Source: a virus
Strand: one strand, 5' to 3'
IMG/VR virus record: IMGVR_UViG_3300044960_000403
Span: 1 to 31,056 of that record
DNA length: 31,056 nt
Each line of letters opens with the position of its first letter. Position 1 is the first letter of the stretch. A model generated the notes under the pieces. It searched no databases. It saw only the letters and a program-made list of their open reading frames with translations, and was not told the origin of the DNA. Positions 13-31,056 of the stretch are shown piece by piece. The position numbers and the translations under genes were made by a program.

Positions 13-3000
13 CTATGAGATTTTGTGGATGGCTACCCAGACAAGAGAACTATCAGAAAGAAGGTTTCTTGCTGCCCCTGTAAAATTGTTAGCTCTAATG
101 CTTATTGTATCTCCAGCATTTAATTGTATATCAGCAGAACCGCCCATCGAAGGAAAAACGTTACCGCCAGTTGGAACAGTCATTCTACCAATCTCGCAAA
201 CATAATTGTTGTTTTTATACAAAGCTGTAGGCATATCAAGTGGAGCGGACACGGAGAAAAAATTGTACAAAAGACGAAAAGATACGTTGTAAATTCCAGC
301 AACAGGGGCAGTAAACACCCAGTTTGTTCCAGTTGTCACTGCATTATGAGTGTCATAATCTTTTATGTTAAAATTTACCGTTGTATATGTGTCAATCGGG
401 ATTGATTGCCCGCTCGACGTTCTATACCTCGCAGCCACCACTTCACCCATCGCAATGGTCTGTGGGGATTGTACTTTAAAAATACTTACATAAGTTCTCA
501 TTATGCCGCCTTCAAGAAAGTAGGCATTTGAACTATTGTTCCCAGCTCCAAAAACAAGGATTTCTACTACATCACCCGCTTTTAGATAAAAAACATCATT
601 ACATATAAGGTCTTGCCGTGATCCGGCAAATGGGGTTGATATCCCCTCAGATCGTACAGAATTATTTATTCTTATTGCTACTGCATAAAAGTTGTTTAAA
701 ACATTGCTGCCAGATAAACGTAAATTGGCATTTATTCGATAATAGCCAGCAGAAGGGCATATCCATCGATTATTTGAGACGTCAAAGCTGTTTGTTGTGT
801 CTATTTCAACATGAGAAAATTGAACTTTAACTGAGTTGCCATTTGTGTTTACCGATTGATCGGTGTTTCTATAAGCTCTACAAACAATCTCCCGCCCATC
901 ATACCCATCGCTCATCTTTACTGAAGACGACCAGCCTTGGATGGGGGCTTCGAGCTGACAAAAAAACTCGTCTCCAGCTCCCCAAGTAAAAGGGAAGTTT
1001 GATTGCACTCTGTTTGAAATATTATCACTTATCCTTCTTGCTGCAAAATGGAAGGTATTTGATGTGCCATCTATTACAATAGTTCCGACTTCTCTTTGAT
1101 TAGTTCCGCCTTCATCAAAACAATCAAAAACGCCTATCCTATCAAAGCCAAAAGGTATTTTCGTAAAATCAAATGCTCGTCCGCTCGGCAATGAGGCAAA
1201 AAAGTAACTAGACCCCATTGAAAATCCAGAGCTTCCAAACTTAAAGCTACCACGAACCTGAATACTATCCCCGACACGTCTCCAATACCATTTATTAAAA
1301 ACACCGCCGCCTGTACCAACACTAAAGCCAGAGTTGAAAGTCGGTGTATACTCCACCCAATCCGTAATTGGTGTGCCGTAAACGTACTTACTTGGAGCGA
1401 CTACCACGTTGTCCACCTTCAAACTCCACGCACTGGAATTTGTAGTGGCTACGTGAAAAATCAAACGATAGTTTGTGCTAGCTGCGCTTGTTTGAAAGTA
1501 GCCGCTAAAACGATCGGCTATATTTGTAGCATTGGCATATAATTTAAAAGTAGATGGCTCAATTAGTTGGTTAGCATCAACATCATAAATGTAAACGATC
1601 AAATCTGAATCAGCTGTGTTAGTTCCAGCATTAAATGTTCCGCTGTTGACAAGATAATCAAACTCAATCTTTAAAACACGAGCACGTGAAGCTCTATCGA
1701 TTGCAAAGTTAACGCTAACACCCTCACCTTGTAAGTTTCCAGAAGGTTTAGAGATGATTAAACTATTATTGCCTGATAATGGTGTAGTATTTGAAGTTGT
1801 GATTGTAACAGAAGGCGAACCACCTGTACCATCTTGTGGGCGAGATTGAGCTGCGTCCTTATATGTAGCAAAGCCAGCTGTACCATTTTCACCATCCCAT
1901 GAAGCGTTAGCAAGCTGTAGAAAATTAAGTTCTCCGCCACCTGAGCCAAGTTCTTTTAAATTGGTACCATCATCATACAACACCTTATCCCCATCGGTGT
2001 CATACACTAAGGTACCCTCTTTACGAGTGAGAGCATTTAAGTTAGTTCGAGTATTTTTAGGAAGTGTTATTCGATTGGAGTTGGAAGCTGTACCCCCGTC
2101 AATGTCTTTATTTGTAATTACTTGGGAGGCATCAATAGTCACAATGTCTGAAGAGTTGGGTAAGTTGTTGCCTGAAACTACCACACCTGAAGCATCTCTA
2201 CGAATTACTTTGTTAGCGTTAGCGACGTCTGTTTTTAACGAAGTTAAAGACAGATCTTGTACAGTATTATCATCGCCATCAATAGTCTTGTTTGTTAATG
2301 TTTGGGTAGAATCGACAGTAACTAAATCTGATGAATTTGGTAGGTTGTTGTCAGAGACAACTACACCCGATGCATTCCTACGAATGACTTTGTTAGCATT
2401 AGGTAAGTCTGTTTTTAAAGACGTTAGGGCTAAGTCTTGAACGGTGTTGTCGTCACCATCGATAGTTTTATTTGTTAGAGTTTGAGATCCGGCCTCTGTA
2501 ACAATTATACCGCTAGAAGGGAACGTAACTGCTGTATTATCTGCTCCCGTACCTCCCCTAGACTTGGCTAGATACTGTTCGGAGCTTAAAACCCCAGATC
2601 CATCGTTTATAACGACATGGTTGGCTGAACCAGAAGCAATCTTAGATCTGGCTATGGCAGCTGCGGCAGCTATATGAGAATCTGTTATAGAGCCAGATAC
2701 GATGTCTGCTGATATGTTAGTACCTGTTAAGGTTAAGTCTACCGTAGCTGTATCAGATACACTGATTTCGTTTTGTAGGGTTGTACCGTTAAACTGTAAC
2801 GTATTCCCGTTTAAGGATAGCGTTAGGTCAGCTGTATTATTAGAATTTCTCCAAGCTATAACATCCGTATTAGCTAGTCTTAATATACCAGATTGCGCTA
2901 TGTTGCTTGAGTTTGATTTGTAGTATTTTGAGATAAGGCCAAAGTTTAAACCGAAGTCGACATCGGCAAGTAGGGTAAAGTTGCCCCCAGCCTTTTGAAG

Positions 3001-3111
3001 CATACCGTTTGTAACAGCTACAGCCCAATCGGTTGCCTGTGTACCCCAGTTGCTGTCGCCTTCTTCTGGATATAGGAAGTTGGTGCCATTTATCGTTAAA
3101 TTTACAGCCAT
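13..3111 (-). CDS. modular tail fibre / receptor-binding protein with C1q-like C-terminal domains
   Basis: A 1032-residue fibre-type protein, probably carried on the virion and contacting the host surface. The N-terminus (about 1-60) resembles the virion-attachment part of short-tail phage fibres. Residues 211-330 are two near-identical 60-residue repeats with a partial third to about 345, typical of a shaft. Residues about 395-585 look like a beta-sandwich carbohydrate-binding-type region. Residues about 743-880 and 892-1032 look like two C1q/TNF-type jelly rolls, separated by a SPQTIAMGEVV linker. The gene follows a hairpin terminator and the TTAATAAGTA motif, with AGAGG close to the ATG. 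Its 3' part shares DNA blocks with the partial fibre gene at 30033-31056. The fibre role is well supported by composition and repeats; domain limits are by eye and the receptor is unknown. Confidence 0.85.
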   Translation of the reverse strand: MAVNLTINGTNFLYPEEGDSNWGTQATDWAVAVTNGMLQKAGGNFTLLADVDFGLNFGLISKYYKSNSSNIAQSGILRLANTDVIAWRNSNNTADLTLSLNGNTLQFNGTTLQNEISVSDTATVDLTLTGTNISADIVSGSITDSHIAAAAAIARSKIASGSANHVVINDGSGVLSSEQYLAKSRGGTGADNTAVTFPSSGIIVTEAGSQTLTNKTIDGDDNTVQDLALTSLKTDLPNANKVIRRNASGVVVSDNNLPNSSDLVTVDSTQTLTNKTIDGDDNTVQDLSLTSLKTDVANANKVIRRDASGVVVSGNNLPNSSDIVTIDASQVITNKDIDGGTASNSNRITLPKNTRTNLNALTRKEGTLVYDTDGDKVLYDDGTNLKELGSGGGELNFLQLANASWDGENGTAGFATYKDAAQSRPQDGTGGSPSVTITTSNTTPLSGNNSLIISKPSGNLQGEGVSVNFAIDRASRARVLKIEFDYLVNSGTFNAGTNTADSDLIVYIYDVDANQLIEPSTFKLYANATNIADRFSGYFQTSAASTNYRLIFHVATTNSSAWSLKVDNVVVAPSKYVYGTPITDWVEYTPTFNSGFSVGTGGGVFNKWYWRRVGDSIQVRGSFKFGSSGFSMGSSYFFASLPSGRAFDFTKIPFGFDRIGVFDCFDEGGTNQREVGTIVIDGTSNTFHFAARRISDNISNRVQSNFPFTWGAGDEFFCQLEAPIQGWSSSVKMSDGYDGREIVCRAYRNTDQSVNTNGNSVKVQFSHVEIDTTNSFDVSNNRWICPSAGYYRINANLRLSGSNVLNNFYAVAIRINNSVRSEGISTPFAGSRQDLICNDVFYLKAGDVVEILVFGAGNNSSNAYFLEGGIMRTYVSIFKVQSPQTIAMGEVVAARYRTSSGQSIPIDTYTTVNFNIKDYDTHNAVTTGTNWVFTAPVAGIYNVSFRLLYNFFSVSAPLDMPTALYKNNNYVCEIGRMTVPTGGNVFPSMGGSADIQLNAGDTISIRANNFTGAARNLLSDSSLVWVAIHKIS
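436..469 (-). repeat. 34-bp fibre linker repeat, copy 1
   Basis: This block encodes the SPQTIAMGEVV linker between the two C-terminal C1q-like domains. It recurs with one mismatch at 30447-30480 in the second fibre gene, although the flanking domains differ. It therefore behaves as a module boundary. Confidence 0.85.
885..1009 (-). repeat. 125-bp fibre repeat, copy 1
   Basis: This block matches the last 125 bases of the window (30932-31056) with two mismatches, at 952 and 961. It encodes the conserved stretch including GWSSSVKMSDGYDGREI just before the first C1q-like domain. After it the two fibre genes diverge. The two mismatches argue against a plain exact assembly overlap and favour two true genomic copies. 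Confidence 0.9.
2122..2481 (-). repeat. two 180-bp tandem repeats in the fibre shaft
   Basis: Residues 211-270 (2302-2481) and 271-330 (2122-2301) of the fibre are near-identical 60-residue units, both starting TLTNKTIDGDDNTVQDL. A third, degenerate unit follows to about 2080. Such units usually form trimeric fibre shafts, and copy number can change by recombination. Confidence 0.85.
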
Positions 3112-3266: not shown

Positions 3267-4529
3267 TTATTGAGAGTTGGTGAAACCAGTTAGGTAAACG
3301 CATCGAGCAGGAGTCTCGACGAATACACACTGATCGGTGTATAAACGCAGCTCAAAACCAGCTCGGTTGCTTAGGTGTAGGAAGATCTCGTCAGACATCC
3401 CCGGAGTCTTAAAGCTAAGATCCTGAGCTCCGATCCTCTTAACTCGCTTAGGAGGAAGGATAAAAGCCTCACCTGCCTTAACGAGGTTGTAGGAATGGAT
3501 CTCGATCTCGCCATTTTGTCCGTGGTAGACAAGAGCTTCAAAGCCGTTCTCACCTTTCTTACGATCGTAAGAAGAATCAAACTTCCTCAAAGCAGCTAGA
3601 TCTGCCGCTAGATCTGACCATGTATCGGGGTTAACAAGAACGATAACCTTCTCATCCAACCCTCTTTGGACAGCCTTGGAGACTGCAGCTAAGACTTTAC
3701 CCATAGTTAGTTGGCCTGATACGGTTACGGTATTACCCTTCCATAGGTTCCATACACCAGCGTTGATGTTGAACAAGGTACCAGTGTTCTGGATGATCTT
3801 GCGTAGACCAGCCATCTCACCCGCCTTAGCACCTTTAAAATAGATGTTAGCGTTGGAAGAAGCATCTAGAGCGGTGATACCAGCAGCTGTACCCTTTACA
3901 CGGATCTTCTTGTTCTCGATGTCTACAGACTCGATCTCAAAGATAGAATCAGCGCCAGAACCTACTAGGTTATCGTTAGATGTGAGGTAGAACTGGATCT
4001 TAGCGTTCTCCATACCAGCCCAGATTCCAGCTGCAAACGAAGCAGCAGAGATCGTTACGTCGGTAGTGGTAGGGTTAACGTTAGTTGTAGCGGTTTTAAC
4101 ACCGAGACCAACCTGACCGTGAAGGATGGAGATCTCAAGACGCTTGGTTAAAGACTCCATCATGTTCTTGATAAGAAGGTCTGTAGACTTTACAAAAGCC
4201 TTCTTAGAAGAAGCAGCACGAGCAGCAGCATCGTAGGATAGAGCAGAGCGTAGAAGCATCTGGGAGCCCACGACCTGAGCATCCTGCATCTGCATGCCCA
4301 CATGGTCCTCTAATTCAAAAGCACCAGAATCTGGGGCAGCGTAAGAGATACCATGCTCTTGAGATACGATAACTGGTTGACGATAGCGTTGTCCAAGCTC
4401 TTTGTCTTTTTGAACAAACTCAAAGATCTTGGTTAATTTCGCACTTTCAGGGATCAGGTTTTCTACTGCATCCCCATAGGTCTCTTTAAAAAGACCGGTT
4501 AATTGTGAAGGGCTTACAAATTGAGCCAT
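3267..4529 (-). CDS. major capsid protein
   Basis: A 420-residue protein in the position of the major capsid gene, directly after the scaffold-like gene and portal. The sequence fits an HK97-fold capsid of the type found in short-tailed phages: a helical N-terminus (MAQFVSPSQLTGLFKETYGD), an alanine-rich long-helix segment around residues 90-125, and a beta-rich C-terminal half. The start has AAGGAG 7 bp upstream. The message has an unusually long leader of about 180 bases containing a strong hairpin, and the gene is flanked by a TTAATAAGTA motif upstream and two hairpins downstream, as expected for the most highly expressed gene. Family assignment is from order, length and general sequence features, not a database match. 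Confidence 0.85.
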   Translation of the reverse strand: MAQFVSPSQLTGLFKETYGDAVENLIPESAKLTKIFEFVQKDKELGQRYRQPVIVSQEHGISYAAPDSGAFELEDHVGMQMQDAQVVGSQMLLRSALSYDAAARAASSKKAFVKSTDLLIKNMMESLTKRLEISILHGQVGLGVKTATTNVNPTTTDVTISAASFAAGIWAGMENAKIQFYLTSNDNLVGSGADSIFEIESVDIENKKIRVKGTAAGITALDASSNANIYFKGAKAGEMAGLRKIIQNTGTLFNINAGVWNLWKGNTVTVSGQLTMGKVLAAVSKAVQRGLDEKVIVLVNPDTWSDLAADLAALRKFDSSYDRKKGENGFEALVYHGQNGEIEIHSYNLVKAGEAFILPPKRVKRIGAQDLSFKTPGMSDEIFLHLSNRAGFELRLYTDQCVFVETPARCVYLTGFTNSQ

Positions 4530-4650
4530 AAATTCTCCTTATCTTGTTTATAATATAAATAGTTTTAGTTTACCTCAGATCTTCACCTAGCTTGAGTAGC
4601 ATATCGCGCCCAATACTAGCGTTGCGTTCCTCGGTGGTTGTCGTGAAAAA

Positions 4651-4696
4651 CCTTAAGCTACCTCACTTAGCCGCAGCGAGTGAGCCGTAGATAAGG
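4651..4696 (-). promoter_or_regulatory. terminator-like hairpin in the capsid mRNA leader
   Basis: Three stem segments pair in order: 4651-4655 with 4692-4696, 4658-4661 with 4687-4690, and 4662-4667 with 4679-4684. Together they give 15 bp with small bulges and an 11-base loop. On the minus strand it is followed by TTTTT. It begins 12 bases after the promoter-like motif, so it would form at the very 5' end of the capsid transcript. It may be an attenuator, a stabilising 5' cap structure or a nuclease-processing site. Confidence 0.6.
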
Positions 4697-4708
4697 CTCT
4701 TCACTATC

Positions 4709-4718
4709 TACTTATTAA
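4709..4718 (-). promoter_or_regulatory. TTAATAAGTA promoter-like motif before the capsid gene
   Basis: Exact copy followed by GATAGTGAAGAG, 179 bp before the capsid ATG. A perfect 12-bp palindrome, TTGTGCGCACAA (4729-4740), lies 10 bp upstream of it. Confidence 0.6.
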
Positions 4719-4789
4719 ATTTTAAAAGTTGTGCGCACAAAAAGTAGAAAAGTCTTTTTTTTGTCTAGTTTTGCGTATACCTTAAGCCC

Positions 4790-5680
4790 TTATTCGTCTA
4801 TTTTTGAGTATACTTCCTTCATGTACTCGTCGTAGGTTTTTTTCTTTTCTCTTGGTTTGGAATCAGACCTACCAGTTGGCTGGTCCTTAGGTGTCGCAGG
4901 GGTTTTCTTAGCTTTTAGCTTATCCACATCGTATCTTCTGATCTTATTAACCAGATCATCCCCTAAAAGCTGAACTAGTAGATCCCCATCCAAAGAGCTG
5001 TATAAAGCCCTCTGTTCTTTGATATAATCCTCTTTAACTAGTGGAGCCACCTGCTTAGCAGATAGGTTATAACCACGCCTTAACCCTTCATACATATAAT
5101 AAGCTATTCTTTTAACCGTAAACTCGTTTTTAGGCAGTCCTGAGGATTGAAGAGCCTCTGTGATGTCTTTAACGTAGTTCTGGCTATACTCAGCTTTAAG
5201 CTGCTCGATCATAGCCTCTTGCTGAGCCCTTTCTTGCTCCTGCTTCTGCCTCTCCATCTCCTCTATCATCGCCTTATACTTCTTAAGCTCACGGTCCTTA
5301 GGGTCCATAAGCTCTTCTTCTAGTTGATGGTATAGGTACTCCTCAGCCAACTTCTTGAAGTCTACACCTAGGCTAGGGTGCGTTAAAACCTTTATAGGGT
5401 CTTTTTTAAGTAAGGATATGAACTCTTCTGCCTGTTTTCTGAGCATGGAAGCTTCACGAAACTTCTCGTCAGCGGCTTTTCTGATCTGATAGCCCTTGAT
5501 AAGTTCCTCTTCGGTAACTTCCATCTCCTCGCCGTTTACCTTTACCTTATACTTCTTTACACCAGATCCGTCGCTAGGTTGCTCTACGGGTGTGGTACCT
5601 GCATCTGGTTTGATAGGCTCGCCTTGTTGTTGGCTTGGTTCTGAGGTGGAGGGAGCTCCACTGTTATCTACCTCTGACAT
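4790..5680 (-). CDS. scaffolding-type head assembly protein
   Basis: A 296-residue, highly charged protein between portal and capsid, the usual place of a scaffold. The N-terminal 40 residues are low-complexity (Ser, Pro, Gln, Gly). Residues about 45-70 form a small beta-type segment (KYKVKVNGEEMEVTEEEL) seen at the start of many phage scaffold or capsid-assembly proteins. Residues about 75-170 are strongly helical with coiled-coil character, and the C-terminus is basic, which often binds capsid protein. AAGGAG precedes the ATG, and the leader carries a small hairpin also found before the gene at 10048. The function is inferred from order and composition. Confidence 0.75.
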   Translation of the reverse strand: MSEVDNSGAPSTSEPSQQQGEPIKPDAGTTPVEQPSDGSGVKKYKVKVNGEEMEVTEEELIKGYQIRKAADEKFREASMLRKQAEEFISLLKKDPIKVLTHPSLGVDFKKLAEEYLYHQLEEELMDPKDRELKKYKAMIEEMERQKQEQERAQQEAMIEQLKAEYSQNYVKDITEALQSSGLPKNEFTVKRIAYYMYEGLRRGYNLSAKQVAPLVKEDYIKEQRALYSSLDGDLLVQLLGDDLVNKIRRYDVDKLKAKKTPATPKDQPTGRSDSKPREKKKTYDEYMKEVYSKIDE

Positions 5681-5693
5681 ATAATCTCCTTTT

Positions 5694-5709
5694 AGCCGTT
5701 GTATAGGCT
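5694..5709 (-). promoter_or_regulatory. leader hairpin next to the scaffold ribosome-binding site, copy 1
   Basis: Minus strand AGCCTATACAACGGCT: a 4-bp stem with an 8-base loop, followed by AAAAGGAGATTATATGTC. A close relative precedes the gene ending at 10048 (10291-10306), where the outer A-T pair is G-C, so pairing is kept. A further stem, CCCC with GGGG, lies at 5724-5737. It may modulate translation or mark an RNA-processing or binding site. Confidence 0.5.
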
Positions 5710-5752
5710 ATCAAGTTGGCCAACCCCTTAAACGGGGCTAGGCTTTTAATAA

Positions 5753-5762
5753 TACTTATTAA
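5753..5762 (-). promoter_or_regulatory. TTAATAAGTA motif at the portal stop codon, before scaffold
   Basis: Exact copy followed by TTATTAAAAG, 72 bp before the scaffold ATG. It overlaps the portal stop codon: the portal ends ATG AGT TAA and the motif runs on from there. Confidence 0.6.
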
Positions 5763-7741
5763 CTCATCTGTTGCTGCTCTATGATGTCAACGCTTACAGG
5801 GTCAGCGTTAGGTGGCGGTTTGGGCATATTAGGCATATTAACCATATCTGCTTTTTGTTGCACTGCCGAGGTTGGCTCTAGCACCTGAGAGTTAGGTCCC
5901 ATACCTCTTACGTTAGGTTCTGGAGCCGTAGCTTGTACAGGTTGCTGGTTTAAAAGAAGCAGCATCTGAGCGTTGGCTGGGTTTCTAAGGATGTCTAGAT
6001 GCTCTTGTAAATGGGCCGTAACAGCTTGGATCAGCTCAGGATTGCGTCTAGCCTCAGGACTTGAAAGGATGACCCTATGCTCCTCTATGTGTAAACGATG
6101 ATTATCTGTAATCATTACAGGGACAGATCTACCTTCGGCTAGCTCTTCGTTCTCAGCTCTTATGTTTAAAAGCTCAGCTTGGGTGCCTTCTATGGCAGGC
6201 TCAAGCTTGCCTGTTGACATAACCTGAATATACTGTTCGGGGGTTTTGATAAGCCCTTGAGCTAGGAGGTTATCAGCTAACTGTATCTTACCAGCTGTGG
6301 TTTTAGAGATGCTAGCCCCCTGATCTACGATCACCCTATTAATCATGTTTAGATCATCCCCTGTAAACTGGCGCATAAGGCTTCTTTGTGATTTGCCGGC
6401 GATTATAGCAACACGAGGGGTTGTAGCGAAGTCTCTAAGGATAGAGATGGTGGCTGTGCCTAGATCCTCTAGAAGCTGGCTGTAAGACTGCTGTAAAGAT
6501 ATGGAGAACTGGATAGACATCGACTGGATAAGGGCTAAGGCTGATCCTGATAGGCTATGTTCAGGGTTACCACGGGCCACACTGTTAATACCTGAGATGG
6601 TTTCGGCCAGCCTTTCAAGCTGTTGCATGAAACTGAAGATCTCAGGAGGTGTGGATGTTAGGTTTAGCGATTGGGGCGCTCCTACCTTCGGGTCATACTC
6701 AATAACGTTTAGTCCCCTACTTAACTCGTTATGGCCTATATTAGCACCTCTGGGTACTAGTACGTTCTGAACTCCAAACTGAGCTTGGTTCGTGATAACC
6801 GTGGAGTATAGATTATCTATGGACTGACATATAGGGAGCAGATCAAAACCTACCGTATAACCGAAACAGGTGCCGATCTGGTCCTCAGGAGCTACCCTGT
6901 AAACAGGTAAGGCGCGATAGGGTAGGTCGCCATCAAGAAAAACCGTATCATCACTTGAAAACACGGTCAAACGTCCATTAGGGACAGAAGCTGTAGGTTT
7001 ATGGTAGAACTCGTAAACTATCACGTCATCGCTGATCTCGTCTTCCTTGATGTGGCTGGTTAGTTTGATCTTTTCGTAGTACTCGGAAGCGTTAGGCAAG
7101 GATAGTATCTTTTCTTTTAGTTCTGGATACTTAGCTATAAGATCAAACCTGTTTTGTCTTGTGATGAGTAGGTACCAATCATGGCTGTTAGGGTCTGTTT
7201 TTGTGAAATCACGTACAACATCCAACGGGAGGAAGTTGTCATACTGGATGTCGCCTTCCTTGATGGGTCGCTGTGTTTCAGGATCAATCTGGACAATCTC
7301 ACCAAGTTCTGTGTTCCATAAACACCGGACAAAACCCTCGCCAAACACAAGGCAATGCTCTATGGCTTGTTTGATGTAGCGCTCTAGATGCTTTTCTCTC
7401 ATGTAGTAGTCTAGGAGGCCAGAAGCAAGGATGGTTTGTGCCTGCGATTTATAGTCTGTGTTCGTAGCTCTAGGCTCAAAAGCTGGACGGGATTGTAGGG
7501 TGAGGGTTTTAAGATGGGTAATTAGGTTTTTGTAATGGTTGACGCTGATCTGGGTATACTCGTTCTGCTCCCCTACCCTTTTAAGCCTACCTCCCTGCAT
7601 AGCTGGGTTGTAGTAGTACTTGTAAGATAGCCGCCAAAGAGAAAGGCGCCCTGATTCTATCAGGTGATCCTTATAAGCTTCGGTTTTCTTTAACAGGTTA
7701 GGTATAAGCTTCTCTAAGCTTTCAGTTGCGAAATACTCCAT
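5759..7741 (-). CDS. portal protein
   Basis: A 660-residue protein immediately after the large terminase. Its length and sequence fit the portal of short-tailed phages (the P22/T7-type group that forms the dodecameric DNA channel at one capsid vertex). The N-terminal 100 residues are helical and basic. The middle holds the alternating beta and helix segments of the portal core. Residues about 385-445 are rich in small and hydroxyl residues around helices consistent with the channel. The last 60 residues are Pro, Asn and Gln-rich and likely disordered. AGAGGT precedes the ATG, and the 3' end overlaps a TTAATAAGTA motif. Assignment rests on order and size plus family resemblance. Confidence 0.85.
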   Translation of the reverse strand: MEYFATESLEKLIPNLLKKTEAYKDHLIESGRLSLWRLSYKYYYNPAMQGGRLKRVGEQNEYTQISVNHYKNLITHLKTLTLQSRPAFEPRATNTDYKSQAQTILASGLLDYYMREKHLERYIKQAIEHCLVFGEGFVRCLWNTELGEIVQIDPETQRPIKEGDIQYDNFLPLDVVRDFTKTDPNSHDWYLLITRQNRFDLIAKYPELKEKILSLPNASEYYEKIKLTSHIKEDEISDDVIVYEFYHKPTASVPNGRLTVFSSDDTVFLDGDLPYRALPVYRVAPEDQIGTCFGYTVGFDLLPICQSIDNLYSTVITNQAQFGVQNVLVPRGANIGHNELSRGLNVIEYDPKVGAPQSLNLTSTPPEIFSFMQQLERLAETISGINSVARGNPEHSLSGSALALIQSMSIQFSISLQQSYSQLLEDLGTATISILRDFATTPRVAIIAGKSQRSLMRQFTGDDLNMINRVIVDQGASISKTTAGKIQLADNLLAQGLIKTPEQYIQVMSTGKLEPAIEGTQAELLNIRAENEELAEGRSVPVMITDNHRLHIEEHRVILSSPEARRNPELIQAVTAHLQEHLDILRNPANAQMLLLLNQQPVQATAPEPNVRGMGPNSQVLEPTSAVQQKADMVNMPNMPKPPPNADPVSVDIIEQQQMS

Positions 7742-7779
7742 CTTTACCTCTTTGAAATGGTTTTAAACCCCATCTTTAT

Positions 7780-9222
7780 TTACTTATTAACTCTAAAGAT
7801 CCTTCTTATGATCTCGGTTTGTTTATTTTCTTGTTTATTTTCAGGGATATAGTGCGTATAAGGACTTACAAACTCCTCCGGAGGGATAGGGTTGGTGTGC
7901 TGGTCTAGGTTGCGTACAAGGTAGATAAGGGCGGCTAAACCATCAAAATGACCATAAACGCTGCTTCTGGCGAATCCCTTATGGTTCCTATCCCATATTG
8001 CATATCTTAGGCAGCCGATAAGGTGGGTGCATCTGGGATGTACCCTTATCCTGCCACTACCTATCATAAGCCTTGTTTCGTTTACCATAGCGTCTAAGTT
8101 TTCTTTGTTGGTAGGGGAGAAGTGTAGGTTATGCATGGAGGATAAGTCTTGGAGCAGGATCAGATTATTGTTATCTGCTATACGTTTATAGGGTTGTAAA
8201 TCTCCAAATACTTGTTTTTCTTTATCTTTTATTTCTTTGGTCAGTCTTTCGGTGGTAACCTCATTGCCCTGCAACGTGATCTCATCTTCGATGTATAGGA
8301 TACCTTCTTTAAAGTTGTAATGGCCGAATATAACAGCAGTTTTGTCTATAACGCCTATATCAAGAGCAACGTAGCGATGGTAGTATTTATCAAACTTATT
8401 GGTCTTATCAGGAATTTGAATATATTCATCCCTCCATTCAGGTACAACGGATAGGGTTTCGTCTGTCACAAACTTACATAAGTATTCCCGCTTAAATATG
8501 GATGAGTTGTAGCCACCAGCTTCTTTGGCGTACAGGTCTACGGTCTCCTTGGATAGGGTTTTGTTGTCGAATATGGTAAAGATCTTATAAAACCCCTGAG
8601 CTTCACACTCTTGTGCAATACTTACAAAGTCATGGGCAGGGGTTTTAGGCGGGGTGGATGCGAGCAAGGTCTTGCCACCTGTAGTTAGGGTTTGAGGTAT
8701 CAAGATTGAATTAATTACATAGTTGAGATCATCGCAGAAGCCGGCCTCGTCTATCAGGTTTAGATGGGAGGTGGTTCCTCTTAGGTTCTCAGCGTGACCG
8801 TTGTCTGTACCAGCACAAGCTATTATTGAGCCGTTAGGGAATCTCCATTCCTGATCTTGGGTGTAATAGCGGGGTTTTAGATGTTTAGGGCAAGTCTCAA
8901 GCAGCATCCTAAAGATAGGGTTCGTGATTTTTTTTAGCGCTTTACCAGTGGGGGCGGCAAACCTGATCTGGGAGTTGGGGTTGCGTATAGCGAACTCCAA
9001 AGCGATAAGACACATTATCGTTGATTTACCGTATCTTCTGGAACAATTTAGCACGTACTTCAAACACTTAGGGTTTCTGATCGCTCCCCATAACGACCCA
9101 TAAAGAGGTAGCTGATAATCATATAACAGAAAAGACAGCAGTCCCCTCTCCCAAGCAAGGCGAAGGGCTGTATCTTTATCAAGGAGCGGTTTTTTTTGAT
9201 CTTTTCTTTTTTTTCTCCCCAT
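7780..9222 (-). CDS. terL: terminase large subunit (packaging ATPase and nuclease)
   Basis: This 480-residue motor protein cuts concatemeric phage DNA and drives it through the portal. The ATPase domain shows a Walker A variant, CSRRYGKST (residues 60-68, Lys66), a second conserved stretch APTGKALKK near 90, and Walker B LNLIDEAG (154-161, Asp158 and Glu159), then a coupling-type motif ASTPP near 188. The RNase H-like nuclease domain has candidate metal-binding Asp288 (ALDIG), Asp350 (IADNN) and Asp427 (HFDGLAAL). Its start overlaps the preceding small gene by 44 bp, which suggests coupled translation. The C-terminus ends VNK because a TTAATAAGTA motif overlaps the last codons. Confident from motifs. 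Confidence 0.95.
   Translation of the reverse strand: MGRKKRKDQKKPLLDKDTALRLAWERGLLSFLLYDYQLPLYGSLWGAIRNPKCLKYVLNCSRRYGKSTIMCLIALEFAIRNPNSQIRFAAPTGKALKKITNPIFRMLLETCPKHLKPRYYTQDQEWRFPNGSIIACAGTDNGHAENLRGTTSHLNLIDEAGFCDDLNYVINSILIPQTLTTGGKTLLASTPPKTPAHDFVSIAQECEAQGFYKIFTIFDNKTLSKETVDLYAKEAGGYNSSIFKREYLCKFVTDETLSVVPEWRDEYIQIPDKTNKFDKYYHRYVALDIGVIDKTAVIFGHYNFKEGILYIEDEITLQGNEVTTERLTKEIKDKEKQVFGDLQPYKRIADNNNLILLQDLSSMHNLHFSPTNKENLDAMVNETRLMIGSGRIRVHPRCTHLIGCLRYAIWDRNHKGFARSSVYGHFDGLAALIYLVRNLDQHTNPIPPEEFVSPYTHYIPENKQENKQTEIIRRIFRVNK
7781..7790 (-). promoter_or_regulatory. TTAATAAGTA motif at the terL stop codon, before portal
   Basis: Exact copy embedded in the last codons of terL (GTT AAT AAG TAA), 39 bp before the portal ATG. 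It is followed by AATAAAGATGGGG and a small GGTT/AACC hairpin. Confidence 0.6.
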
Positions 9223-18950: not shown

Positions 18951-20555
18951 TTACTTCCCTTTACGCCTTCTATTATATTCTTCTATGTTTTTCATAAACT
19001 CGCGAAACTCGCGGTCCTTATTATACAGCAAATAATAAGCCGCAGCTCCAGATTGTGGCCCCCTCTGCATGGCCTGACTTAATACTGATGCCCATCGAGG
19101 GTTCTTTGCTGCTATAGCATCTAGATGCTCGGTAAGCCTAAAAAGGCTAGAACCGACAAGGAGGGGACTGGCGTTCTCAGCCAGCTTCTTGCCCAGTACC
19201 GCACCACCGGCAACAAGGGGATCTCCTGTCGCTATAATACCGCCCCCGGCTACGACATAGTCCGTTAAACCCAATAACCTGTTGCCCTCCTGTAATAGCT
19301 TGTTGTTTGTAAATTTTTCAATCTGACTTAAACTTTTATAATCTAAGATAGCGTTACGATACCTAGGCAGCAGATCAGGTGCACTTGTTTTTATCGTGTC
19401 GTAGATCGACTCATTTAGCGCTTTTTTCGCCGAATTTATGATCTCCTTCTTAAACAAAGCTTCCTCAGATAGGTTTACCCCTTGGAATCGACGCTCAAGT
19501 CGTGAGAACCCCTCTTGTAAGGCTTTCACCTGCTTTAAACTAGGAGCTTCGCCTAGGCTTTTGATGTCATCAACCACATCTTGAAAAACCTTTAGCTGAG
19601 GCCTGTTCATGCTTAGGGACAGCTCGTCCGCCCATTCACTTCTAAGCTTTTCAAGTATCGAGCTAGTGTCGATCTTTGCGTTAGGATTATTCTTACTTAC
19701 GTCGTCGATGATACCGCCAATCTGTTTGCCGACATAGGTTTTAGCCTCTGCCACCTTTTTAGCCATATCATCAGCGCTACCACCAAGAAGTTTGTACTTT
19801 ACTGCTGTGTTAGCTAACCTTTTCTGCGCCTCAACCAGATCTTCAGGACGAGATGCTATCTTGTTAAGCCGAGCTTTGTCGGCGCCTAACCCTTTTAAAA
19901 CGCTGCTTCTAGCTGTCTGTGCAGCGTTCTGTAAAGCACCAACCGCACCGCCAATCGCTGCACCTAGGGCGCCACCTTTGATAGAATCAGCAGCTACGTC
20001 ACCAAGTGACTCACCCTCAGATGTACCCGCCCCATACAAACCACCACTCAAAGCTCCTTTGGCAGCAGCCCCTGTTACTGTTGCCCCTCTACCTACAGTT
20101 GTAGCCGCTCCAACAACAGGCACTAAGCTTGTAGCAACGCCGCCTCCTATCATGCCGGCAGTGAAGGTTTTGGGGTTTGCCTCCTGAGCCTGACGGTAAG
20201 CTTCGCGTGATTCGTCTCTTTTCTTGGTGTATAGATCTGAAAAGTCCGATAATGTTTTATCGGTGAAAGCTATGTCCTTCAGAGCCGATAGGCCACCAGC
20301 TATCTCGTCAGCAAACCCGAAAGTTACCCCCTGTGCAGCCCCCCTTAGTGCTGACTCCAACTTGCTTACACCAGGATCTACTATCGTGTAGGGGCCAATG
20401 TCTCGAATGTTAAGAGGCCTTTTAGGACCCTCGTCCACTATCGTGTAGGGGCCTATATCTTTTATGTTAAGAGGCTTTTTAGGCTCCTCATCTAGTATCG
20501 TGTAGCTTTCAAGGTCTCTGATGTTTAGCACTTTTTTCTTATTGTTTTGACTCAT
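18951..20555 (-). CDS. ejection-type internal virion protein with N-terminal 19-residue repeats
   Basis: A 534-residue protein, last large member of the ejection-protein set, probably packed in the capsid or tail and delivered into the envelope with the DNA. Residues 10-62 hold three copies of a 19-residue unit (LNIRDIGPYTIVDEGPKRP type). Residues about 65-215 include long Gly/Ala-rich segments with GxxxG-like spacing (for example GGALGAAIGGAVGAL), likely membrane-inserting. The C-terminal half is helical. These features resemble phage DNA-transfer proteins. The repeats could be binding sites for another virion protein. AGGAG precedes the ATG. Confidence 0.7.
   Translation of the reverse strand: MSQNNKKKVLNIRDLESYTILDEEPKKPLNIKDIGPYTIVDEGPKRPLNIRDIGPYTIVDPGVSKLESALRGAAQGVTFGFADEIAGGLSALKDIAFTDKTLSDFSDLYTKKRDESREAYRQAQEANPKTFTAGMIGGGVATSLVPVVGAATTVGRGATVTGAAAKGALSGGLYGAGTSEGESLGDVAADSIKGGALGAAIGGAVGALQNAAQTARSSVLKGLGADKARLNKIASRPEDLVEAQKRLANTAVKYKLLGGSADDMAKKVAEAKTYVGKQIGGIIDDVSKNNPNAKIDTSSILEKLRSEWADELSLSMNRPQLKVFQDVVDDIKSLGEAPSLKQVKALQEGFSRLERRFQGVNLSEEALFKKEIINSAKKALNESIYDTIKTSAPDLLPRYRNAILDYKSLSQIEKFTNNKLLQEGNRLLGLTDYVVAGGGIIATGDPLVAGGAVLGKKLAENASPLLVGSSLFRLTEHLDAIAAKNPRWASVLSQAMQRGPQSGAAAYYLLYNKDREFREFMKNIEEYNRRRKGK
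20370..20528 (-). repeat. three 57-bp repeats in the ejection protein N-terminus
   Basis: These encode residues 10-28, 29-47 and 48-62 of the 534-residue protein. Units 2 and 3 are nearly identical; unit 1 has diverged. Each contains an acidic YTIVD core, a plausible short binding peptide. Confidence 0.8.
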
Positions 20556-29421: not shown

Positions 29422-30033
29422 TTAAATTTCCCCTAATTCTTGCAATTTAGCTAACAACTTAGCTTTTATGACATCCAAATCAGCTTGTGAAAACACCATC
29501 AAAATTTTTGGCTCAATAGATAGTATTTTGTTATAAGCCGACTTTAACGACCCCGCATATAGATGTTCACGGATAATGGTAAAATCTGGGTCTGTTAAAA
29601 GAACTTCTAAAGCTTGTTCGTTTATATTAGCTTGCTCGTTTAATACAGAAATTTGATCTATCATGTGCTCGCCAAATAAACGCTTTTGTCTTCTAGTTTC
29701 TAGTCTTTTCTGAGCTTCTATTTCAGCCGTAATGTCCTCAATTACCACTTCAAACTCGGCGGGGTGCTCGATCGTTGTCTCGGGAGAGACGACTATTTCC
29801 TGCATCTCTGTCACCGCAGGTGTAATGACGTTACCCTCCTCATCACGAACTTCGGGAGTGATGACTACCTCTTGCTGTTCAGTGATTCTTGGCTGAACCA
29901 CTTCCGTATAAGCAGGCTTCCCCCACCATTGCTGCGCTGTACCTTCAGCTATCCAAGCATCAGCTTCGGCTTGGGTGTTAAATTCTCCTAAATGTGTAAC
30001 TTGCCCATTTTTAATAATGTTTACTCTAAGCAT
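29422..30033 (-). CDS. probable tail-fibre-associated assembly protein
   Basis: A 203-residue protein whose ATG overlaps the stop of the fibre gene (TAATG) behind GGAGG, so it is tightly coupled. The N-terminus (LRVNIIKNGQVTHLGEFNTQ, then AEADAWIAEG) is a small alpha/beta domain. The middle has two similar stretches (EVVITPEVRDEEGNVITPAV and EIVVSPE). The C-terminus is helical. Small proteins directly after fibres often help fibre folding or attachment, in the way gp38-type proteins do. A GTG at 30048 would add 5 residues without a better ribosome-binding site. Confidence 0.6.
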   Translation of the reverse strand: MLRVNIIKNGQVTHLGEFNTQAEADAWIAEGTAQQWWGKPAYTEVVQPRITEQQEVVITPEVRDEEGNVITPAVTEMQEIVVSPETTIEHPAEFEVVIEDITAEIEAQKRLETRRQKRLFGEHMIDQISVLNEQANINEQALEVLLTDPDFTIIREHLYAGSLKSAYNKILSIEPKILMVFSQADLDVIKAKLLAKLQELGEI

Positions 30034-31056
30034 TAGTAGATCCTCCACGAAAAGTTATTTCTCTGTGGTGCACCGGCAAGTAATGCGAGCGACGGGCTCA
30101 CGGTATGCCAAACCATCGGCTTAAAAACATCTCCCGCTTTAACTGGATAACCTTTCACCGTAACGACACAAGTAGCTTGCCCATTTCCTGTCGGAGCTAT
30201 ATCAGTTGCTTGTATATCAACTAAACTCGGGCTAAATCTTCTAATAAATGCTGTTCTTATCCCGTTTGGATTACTCACAAATGTCGCCACAAAAGAAATG
30301 TCTAAAAATCCAGACCTATTAATTGTAAGCTCACCTGTTGATGGATTAAAAATTCCATGAGTATCAGAGACAACAGTCCAACCTGTCGGAGCAAAATCAG
30401 TAAATTGTGGTATGCTAGGGCCGCTTGATAGACTAGCATACCCCGTCACCACTTCACCCATCGCAATGGTCTGCGGGGATGAGATGCGTTCGATGGAGAC
30501 GAAGTTCGGCTCGTTAGCTCCACCCACCTCAAGAGACCTGTTGGCGCCGCTTGATTGAAACAATCCAATACTAACTGCATCACCAGCTTTCAGATACAGC
30601 GTTCCTGAAATACTTATTCCTCTTTCTTCTGCTGTTATCGTAGTTACATACCTTGACCTTGTTCCTCTAACAATTGGACTGCCATTTCTGTGAAGCTCTA
30701 AAAACGCACCGCATTCGGTGCTTGCTGGAAAAAGAATAGTTGCATTAGCACTAACTCTATAATAACCACTTACCGGAGCAATATATCTCCAAGTATTTTG
30801 CCAGTTTGTACTGTGACCGTTACCAGCACCGACAACACTCGATGTAGTATCAAAATCTTTTGAGTTAAAATCTATAAATGTCGCCGTATTATTTACAAGA
30901 GTGCCGCCTACTGTAGCTCTATAAGTAGCCGCAATCTCCCGCCCATCATACCCATCGCTCATCTTTACTGAAGACGACCAGCCTTGGATGGGGGCTTCAA
31001 GCTGACAGAAAAACTCGTCTCCAGCTCCCCAAGTAAAAGGGAAGTTTGATTGCACT
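30033..31056 (-). CDS. second tail fibre, C-terminal part, 5' end missing
   Basis: About 340 residues of a second fibre; the reading frame is open at the window edge, so the true start is outside. It begins with the conserved block (GWSSSVKMSDGYDGREI) shared with the large fibre, then a C1q-like domain (about 42-190 of the visible part) different from the large fibre's, then the same SPQTIAMGEVV linker, then a second distinct beta domain. The shared blocks with different domains between them point to module exchange. It is coupled to the next gene by TAATG. Role: probable receptor binding. Confidence 0.85.
   Translation of the reverse strand, partial: VQSNFPFTWGAGDEFFCQLEAPIQGWSSSVKMSDGYDGREIAATYRATVGGTLVNNTATFIDFNSKDFDTTSSVVGAGNGHSTNWQNTWRYIAPVSGYYRVSANATILFPASTECGAFLELHRNGSPIVRGTRSRYVTTITAEERGISISGTLYLKAGDAVSIGLFQSSGANRSLEVGGANEPNFVSIERISSPQTIAMGEVVTGYASLSSGPSIPQFTDFAPTGWTVVSDTHGIFNPSTGELTINRSGFLDISFVATFVSNPNGIRTAFIRRFSPSLVDIQATDIAPTGNGQATCVVTVKGYPVKAGDVFKPMVWHTVSPSLALLAGAPQRNNFSWRIY
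30447..30480 (-). repeat. 34-bp fibre linker repeat, copy 2
   Basis: Pairs with 436-469 with one mismatch, and encodes the SPQTIAMGEVV linker in the second fibre gene. Confidence 0.85.
30932..31056 (-). repeat. 125-bp fibre repeat, copy 2, at the window end
   Basis: Pairs with 885-1009 with two mismatches. The window stops inside or at the edge of this repeat, as happens when an assembly cannot cross duplicated DNA. Confidence 0.9.

Follow-up and report, generated by a model that had tools for sequence, protein, structure and literature searches.

In T-even phages, adhesin specificity is reportedly swapped via recombination between conserved motifs, a statement carried by the title of a 1998 report by Tetart et al. 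that PMC7468147 cites. The proteins of the distal tail fibre locus of those phages are unrelated to the ones described here, where the fibre of a short-tailed-type phage carries C1q-like beads. In natural phage populations, the genes that can be identified in metaviromic islands include C1q-like proteins as one of the most frequent kinds (Mizuno et al. 2014, PMC3909814), and a C1q-domain gene was found to differ between locations in near-identical phages, with coexisting gene variants per metagenome and contigs broken at the variable regions (Bellas et al. 2020, PMC7468147). The locus and relatives analyzed here share with these islands the strong variation of putative C1q-like receptor-binding proteins in near-identical natural phages. 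They differ in that the earlier studies rested on read-recruitment gaps and whole-gene variants, whereas here the joints can be given at base level, and in that an endonuclease and an assembly gene can be part of the exchanged cassette.

Both the exchange of fibre tips and the variation of C1q tips in natural phages have already been published, and what we present is a new example of a known process. The new elements are the base-level joints for environmental C1q-tip exchange (hinge, linker, trunk repeats and stop codon) and a natural recombinant group of three contigs (G001, G002 and G003), in which an endonuclease and an assembly gene accompany the moving tip. The analysis also carries a caution, which is that when a metagenomic phage contig has a fibre piece at either end, the pair should not be taken for two genes.

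Layout of the two fibre ends and their C1q-like beads

The window, by which we mean the whole stretch of DNA that was analyzed, is an entire linear virus record of 31,056 bases, and its final base lies inside a repeat copy (30932-31056). The fibre features at its two ends are listed below, where L035 denotes a contig with baseplate genes that is the nearest other carrier of the window's hinge and linker.

13..3111, minus strand: fibre gene 1, complete ORF, 1032 aa
13..435, minus strand: C-terminal bead of fibre 1, variable, also C1q-like (phrog_15750 at aa 897-1012 and a predicted second beta sandwich)
436..469, minus strand: linker SPQTIAMGEVV of fibre 1, conserved; 33/34 identical to 30447-30480, and 30/33 nt in L035
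470..884, minus strand: C1q-like bead 1 of fibre 1, variable (Pfam C1q and predicted fold)
885..1009, minus strand: hinge block of fibre 1, VQSNFPFTWGAGDEFFCQLEAPIQGWSSSVKMSDGYDGREI; 98.4% identity with 30932-31056
2096..2455, minus strand: two tandem 180-nt trunk repeats (NKTIDGDD...ANKVIRR), copies 72% identical
29422..30048, minus strand: probable tail-fibre assembly gene (g208), 208 aa, directly after fibre piece 2
30033..31056, minus strand: fibre piece 2, ORF open at the contig end, C-terminal 340 aa only
30033..30446, minus strand: C-terminal bead of fibre piece 2, variable, of the L035 type (DNA match and alignment with L035)
30447..30480, minus strand: linker of fibre piece 2, conserved; 33/34 match to 436-469
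30481..30931, minus strand: C1q-like bead 1 of fibre piece 2, variable (predicted fold)
30932..31056, minus strand: hinge block of fibre piece 2, cut by the contig end

Fibre gene 1 is arranged as an N-terminal part, a repeated trunk, the conserved hinge block, C1q bead 1, the linker and C1q bead 2, and its N-terminus is conserved among relatives, where it comes after the capsid gene. Fibre piece 2 is a 340-aa C-terminal fragment and not a full gene. The product of 29422..30048 has 72% identity over 117 aa with that of an L035 gene, itself a match to PHROG 4912 ('tail fiber assembly').

The first-pass annotation had described near-identical DNA blocks in both fibre pieces with strongly different domains between them, and both observations were borne out. 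The hinge blocks (885-1009 and 30932-31056) are identical at 123 of 125 nt, with two mismatches, and the linker blocks (436-469 and 30447-30480) at 33 of 34 nt, with one. Over 394 aligned positions the head between the blocks gave 177 matches, and shuffled controls gave 156-183 over about 390; the DNA of the C-terminal domain after the linker block likewise aligned no better than its shuffled control. The hinge block had been given as 42 residues and is corrected here to 41 codons. The 125-bp match itself stands, but not as the full shared length; because the right-hand copy stops at the record's last base (31056), 125 bp is a lower limit and the shared DNA may be longer.

Pfam C1q (PF00386) matches aa 757-854 of fibre 1 with 24.4 bits, the gathering cut-off being 23.7. 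A Pfam search with fibre piece 2 gave no C1q match at E 0.1, and this piece was placed with C1q by its predicted fold alone. AlphaFold models of both tips, built as single chains on an alignment with L035, L110, L111 and L004, each contain two beta sandwiches, with a mean pLDDT of 76 for fibre 1 and 73 for piece 2. The top Foldseek matches of both tips in the PDB were C1q and TNF-family domains, with E values down to 1e-13 and 1e-10, respectively. The predicted fold of bead 1 of fibre 1 scored a TM-score of about 0.85 by target against C1q structures, and single-chain C1q trimers aligned over both beads. Both predicted tips also gave fold matches to phage structures, namely the C-terminal receptor-binding domain of TM4 gp23 (9n6a) and the phi812 central spike (9eul), but these are at 13-20% sequence identity and belong to other phages with another fibre architecture. 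As modelled, each fibre end is predicted to consist of the hinge, a C1q bead, the conserved linker and another C1q bead. Of the C1q-like domain and the separate variable C-terminal domain originally described, the first is upheld by Pfam and fold, and the second is reassigned as a predicted second C1q-like bead. The fold of the beads and their position suggest that they bind the receptor.

One fibre locus or two genes

Relatives were gathered by portal and capsid searches, and their gene order is terminase, portal, scaffold, capsid, fibre, small genes, g309 and a tail gene. The left end of the window reads capsid and fibre 1, and the right end reads fibre 2, g208, g120 and g309. This order at both ends matches the relatives, and on a circular map the two ends therefore share one slot. 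The nearest relative seen is a 5-kb contig (L037) that is 94.6% identical to window 3525-8577 and ends inside the capsid gene, before the fibre.

On balance, a single fibre gene with an alternative version at each window end is the probable reading, and a likelier one than tandem genes. The earlier description of two fibre genes in this genome is not established by the record, in which the pieces lie at opposite contig ends and synteny favours one locus. The genome would be that of a circularly mapped short-tailed-type phage, cut by the assembler inside its main fibre locus, and the distal part of a single fibre gene would be seen at the two ends in two versions. Each version would have the common trunk and hinge followed by two C1q-like receptor-binding beads with a conserved linker, and on the fibre-2 side the matching assembly gene would come after the beads. 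The two ends would be alleles coexisting in the sample.

Contig G007 (33,246 bp), from the same group, illustrates how contig ends of this type arise. Between its ends (L242:1-652 and L243:5592-6243) there is a fibre overlap of 652 nt, exact over its first 127 nt and 4-5% divergent over the remainder, with an overall identity of 96%. G007 is a circular genome that was classed as linear because its overlap is non-identical. The ends of another contig, G008, overlap by 194 nt with 1 mismatch. Among 19 near-complete contigs of the group, a rough count gave about 4 or 5 cuts in the fibre slot against about 3 expected, a difference that is not significant. For the window, an assembly k-mer length may be considered as the origin of the 125-nt end overlap; the two SNPs argue against a shared graph node, although the exact stretch at the start of G007 is 127 nt long. 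The longest exact match between the right end and fibre 1 is 48 nt, which is not a usual k-mer length. Together with the two SNPs this means that the window ends do not simply represent one node of the assembly graph, which counts against the one-locus reading.

A tandem arrangement, in which fibre 1 would be followed by an unassembled stretch and by a second fibre with its own N-terminus in the same genome, is possible and in our view less probable. The direct repeats would then allow tip deletion, conversion or swapping within one genome. A second large ORF is present in the slot between the capsid gene and g309 in 6 of 30 relatives. In line with tandem genes, L108 has two fibre ORFs with related N-termini in this slot, and the larger relative G001 has two fibre genes with related trunks on one contig. 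The second slot ORF of L112 and of L123/L124 is unrelated to the first, and the larger relatives L007 and L019 have a second large slot ORF too. A GGAG followed by an ATG a few bases on, downstream of the fibre 1 stop, can also be cited for tandem genes; it marks the start of another gene after fibre 1, which fits the one-locus and the two-gene readings alike. The tandem arrangement is opposed by the slot itself, which holds at most one ORF of at least 400 aa in 24 of the 30 slot-complete contigs (our count), and by the left contig end, which is not a repeat elsewhere within the contig.

A more specific form, in which a phage of about 31 kb has tandem fibre genes whose C1q cassettes are kept in register by the hinge and linker DNA and whose tips are switched or copied by intragenomic recombination, is improbable; if true, it would be a tip-switching device without invertase or reverse transcriptase.

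It is very unlikely that the assembly is chimeric, with the right end wrongly joined from another phage. Tip 2 and its assembly gene do resemble those of the baseplate-gene phage L035, but its hinge DNA is much nearer to that of fibre 1 (98%) than to that of L035, and the succession of fibre, assembly gene and g309 is the same in L082 and L113, where the assembly gene has the same position after the fibre.

The least probable reading, and one already made unlikely by silent-site counts, is that no exchange took place and the blocks are alike through strong protein constraint alone: the hinge and linker motifs are indeed conserved as protein in other phages (the hinge motif PI.GWSSSV is present in L035 and L110, and in looser form in L111), but all three block differences within the window are silent third-position changes (2 of 41 hinge codons and 1 of 11 linker codons), whereas 6 of 20 hinge and 53 of 117 trunk third positions differ between the window and L035. 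Because third positions differ far more against L035, the near-identity of the blocks within the window is recent and goes beyond protein constraint.

Exchange of fibre tips in related phages

Strain groups (n=16) were defined by an identity of at least 98.5% between contigs over the capsid gene. By our count, abrupt divergence occurs in 3 of these 16 near-identical groups, and it is always inside the fibre. For example, L038 and L039 share 7,668 bp at 99.83% identity and then continue into unrelated distal fibres of about 692 and 328 residues, with homology resuming at the stop codon. L009 and L011 part within a trunk repeat of the NKTIDGDD kind, and the same kind of repeat is present in the window.

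Another case is the recombinant group. G001 and G003 have zero mismatches over 16,560 bp and then carry different tips; the tips of G001-G003 and of the other exchange relatives were called C1q-like by eye from sequence. The tip of G002 is that of G003, and G001 also contains this tip, in a second fibre gene located at its opposite contig end. Behind different trunks, G001 (L236:4177-5742) and G002 (L241:9123-10688) share an identical cassette of 1,566 bp, which contains the fibre tip, a GIY-YIG/NUMOD-type endonuclease and most of the tail-fibre assembly gene. The crossover in G002 lies within a 33-nt stretch (SGYLVINASK) conserved between both fibre genes, and the cassette has its right-hand breakpoint within FL.STDWM, a conserved part of the assembly gene. 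Because the exact overlap at the crossing point is only 5 nt, this junction is not an assembly error caused by shared k-mers. The endonuclease might drive the transfer of the cassette.

The swapping of heads between fibres proposed in the first-pass annotation is thus found in relatives at the same locus, in the three strain groups and the G002 cassette, but not at the window's own blocks. The G002 event is the predicted swap, in a larger relative and at another linker. In the mechanism that we propose, recombination between phages that share a host would take place at short joints that are conserved (trunk repeats, hinge, linker and stop codon), and an incoming tip, often with its assembly gene, would replace the resident tip. 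The exchange would probably proceed by homologous or homology-guided recombination.

Joints of the window and diversification machinery

Compared with the window, L035 is 78% identical in trunk DNA over about 435 nt, 85% in the hinge over 73 nt and 91% in the linker over 35 nt. Against fibre piece 2 it is 71% identical over 189 nt of DNA, from the linker into the last bead; it also has the last bead of tip 2 and the assembly gene, and a different first bead. Fibre trunk, tip bead and assembly gene are common to window 29422-31056 and L035:8178-10564. The modules of L035 and the window are joined at the same motifs and are common to phages of different tail type, which suggests module exchange across tail types, between the short-tailed-type phage of the window and the baseplate-gene phage L035.

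A search of all viral contigs with the linker DNA pattern found only the contig of L035. The contig searches gave no second contig with the window trunk and another tip, and L035 was the only other one found to have the hinge or linker of the window. None of the exchanges seen in relatives uses the 125-bp and 34-bp blocks, which had been put forward as crossover sites. From the joints seen in relatives and in L035, we infer that the hinge and linker of the window can be used in this way. The annotated phage collection contained no DNA match for the head genes and one distant fibre relative (MW202898.1), and alignments of tip and trunk against bacterial genomes, in a search for host or prophage, gave no relative.

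We agree with the earlier statement that no reverse transcriptase or invertase is visible, as neither was found in the proteins scanned. A phage recombinase was also not found among the window proteins scanned, which include several small ORFs without assignment. The locus does not have the features of a diversity-generating retroelement, as the window proteins scanned gave no reverse transcriptase and the differences are whole-domain replacements. Nor does it resemble an invertible tail-fibre segment of the Mu/P1 type, as the same proteins gave no invertase hit, the blocks are direct repeats, and a matching pair in inverted orientation is not present there. Elsewhere in the window, a 534-aa protein with a match to an internal virion protein family begins with three tandem 57-nt repeats (20377-20547).
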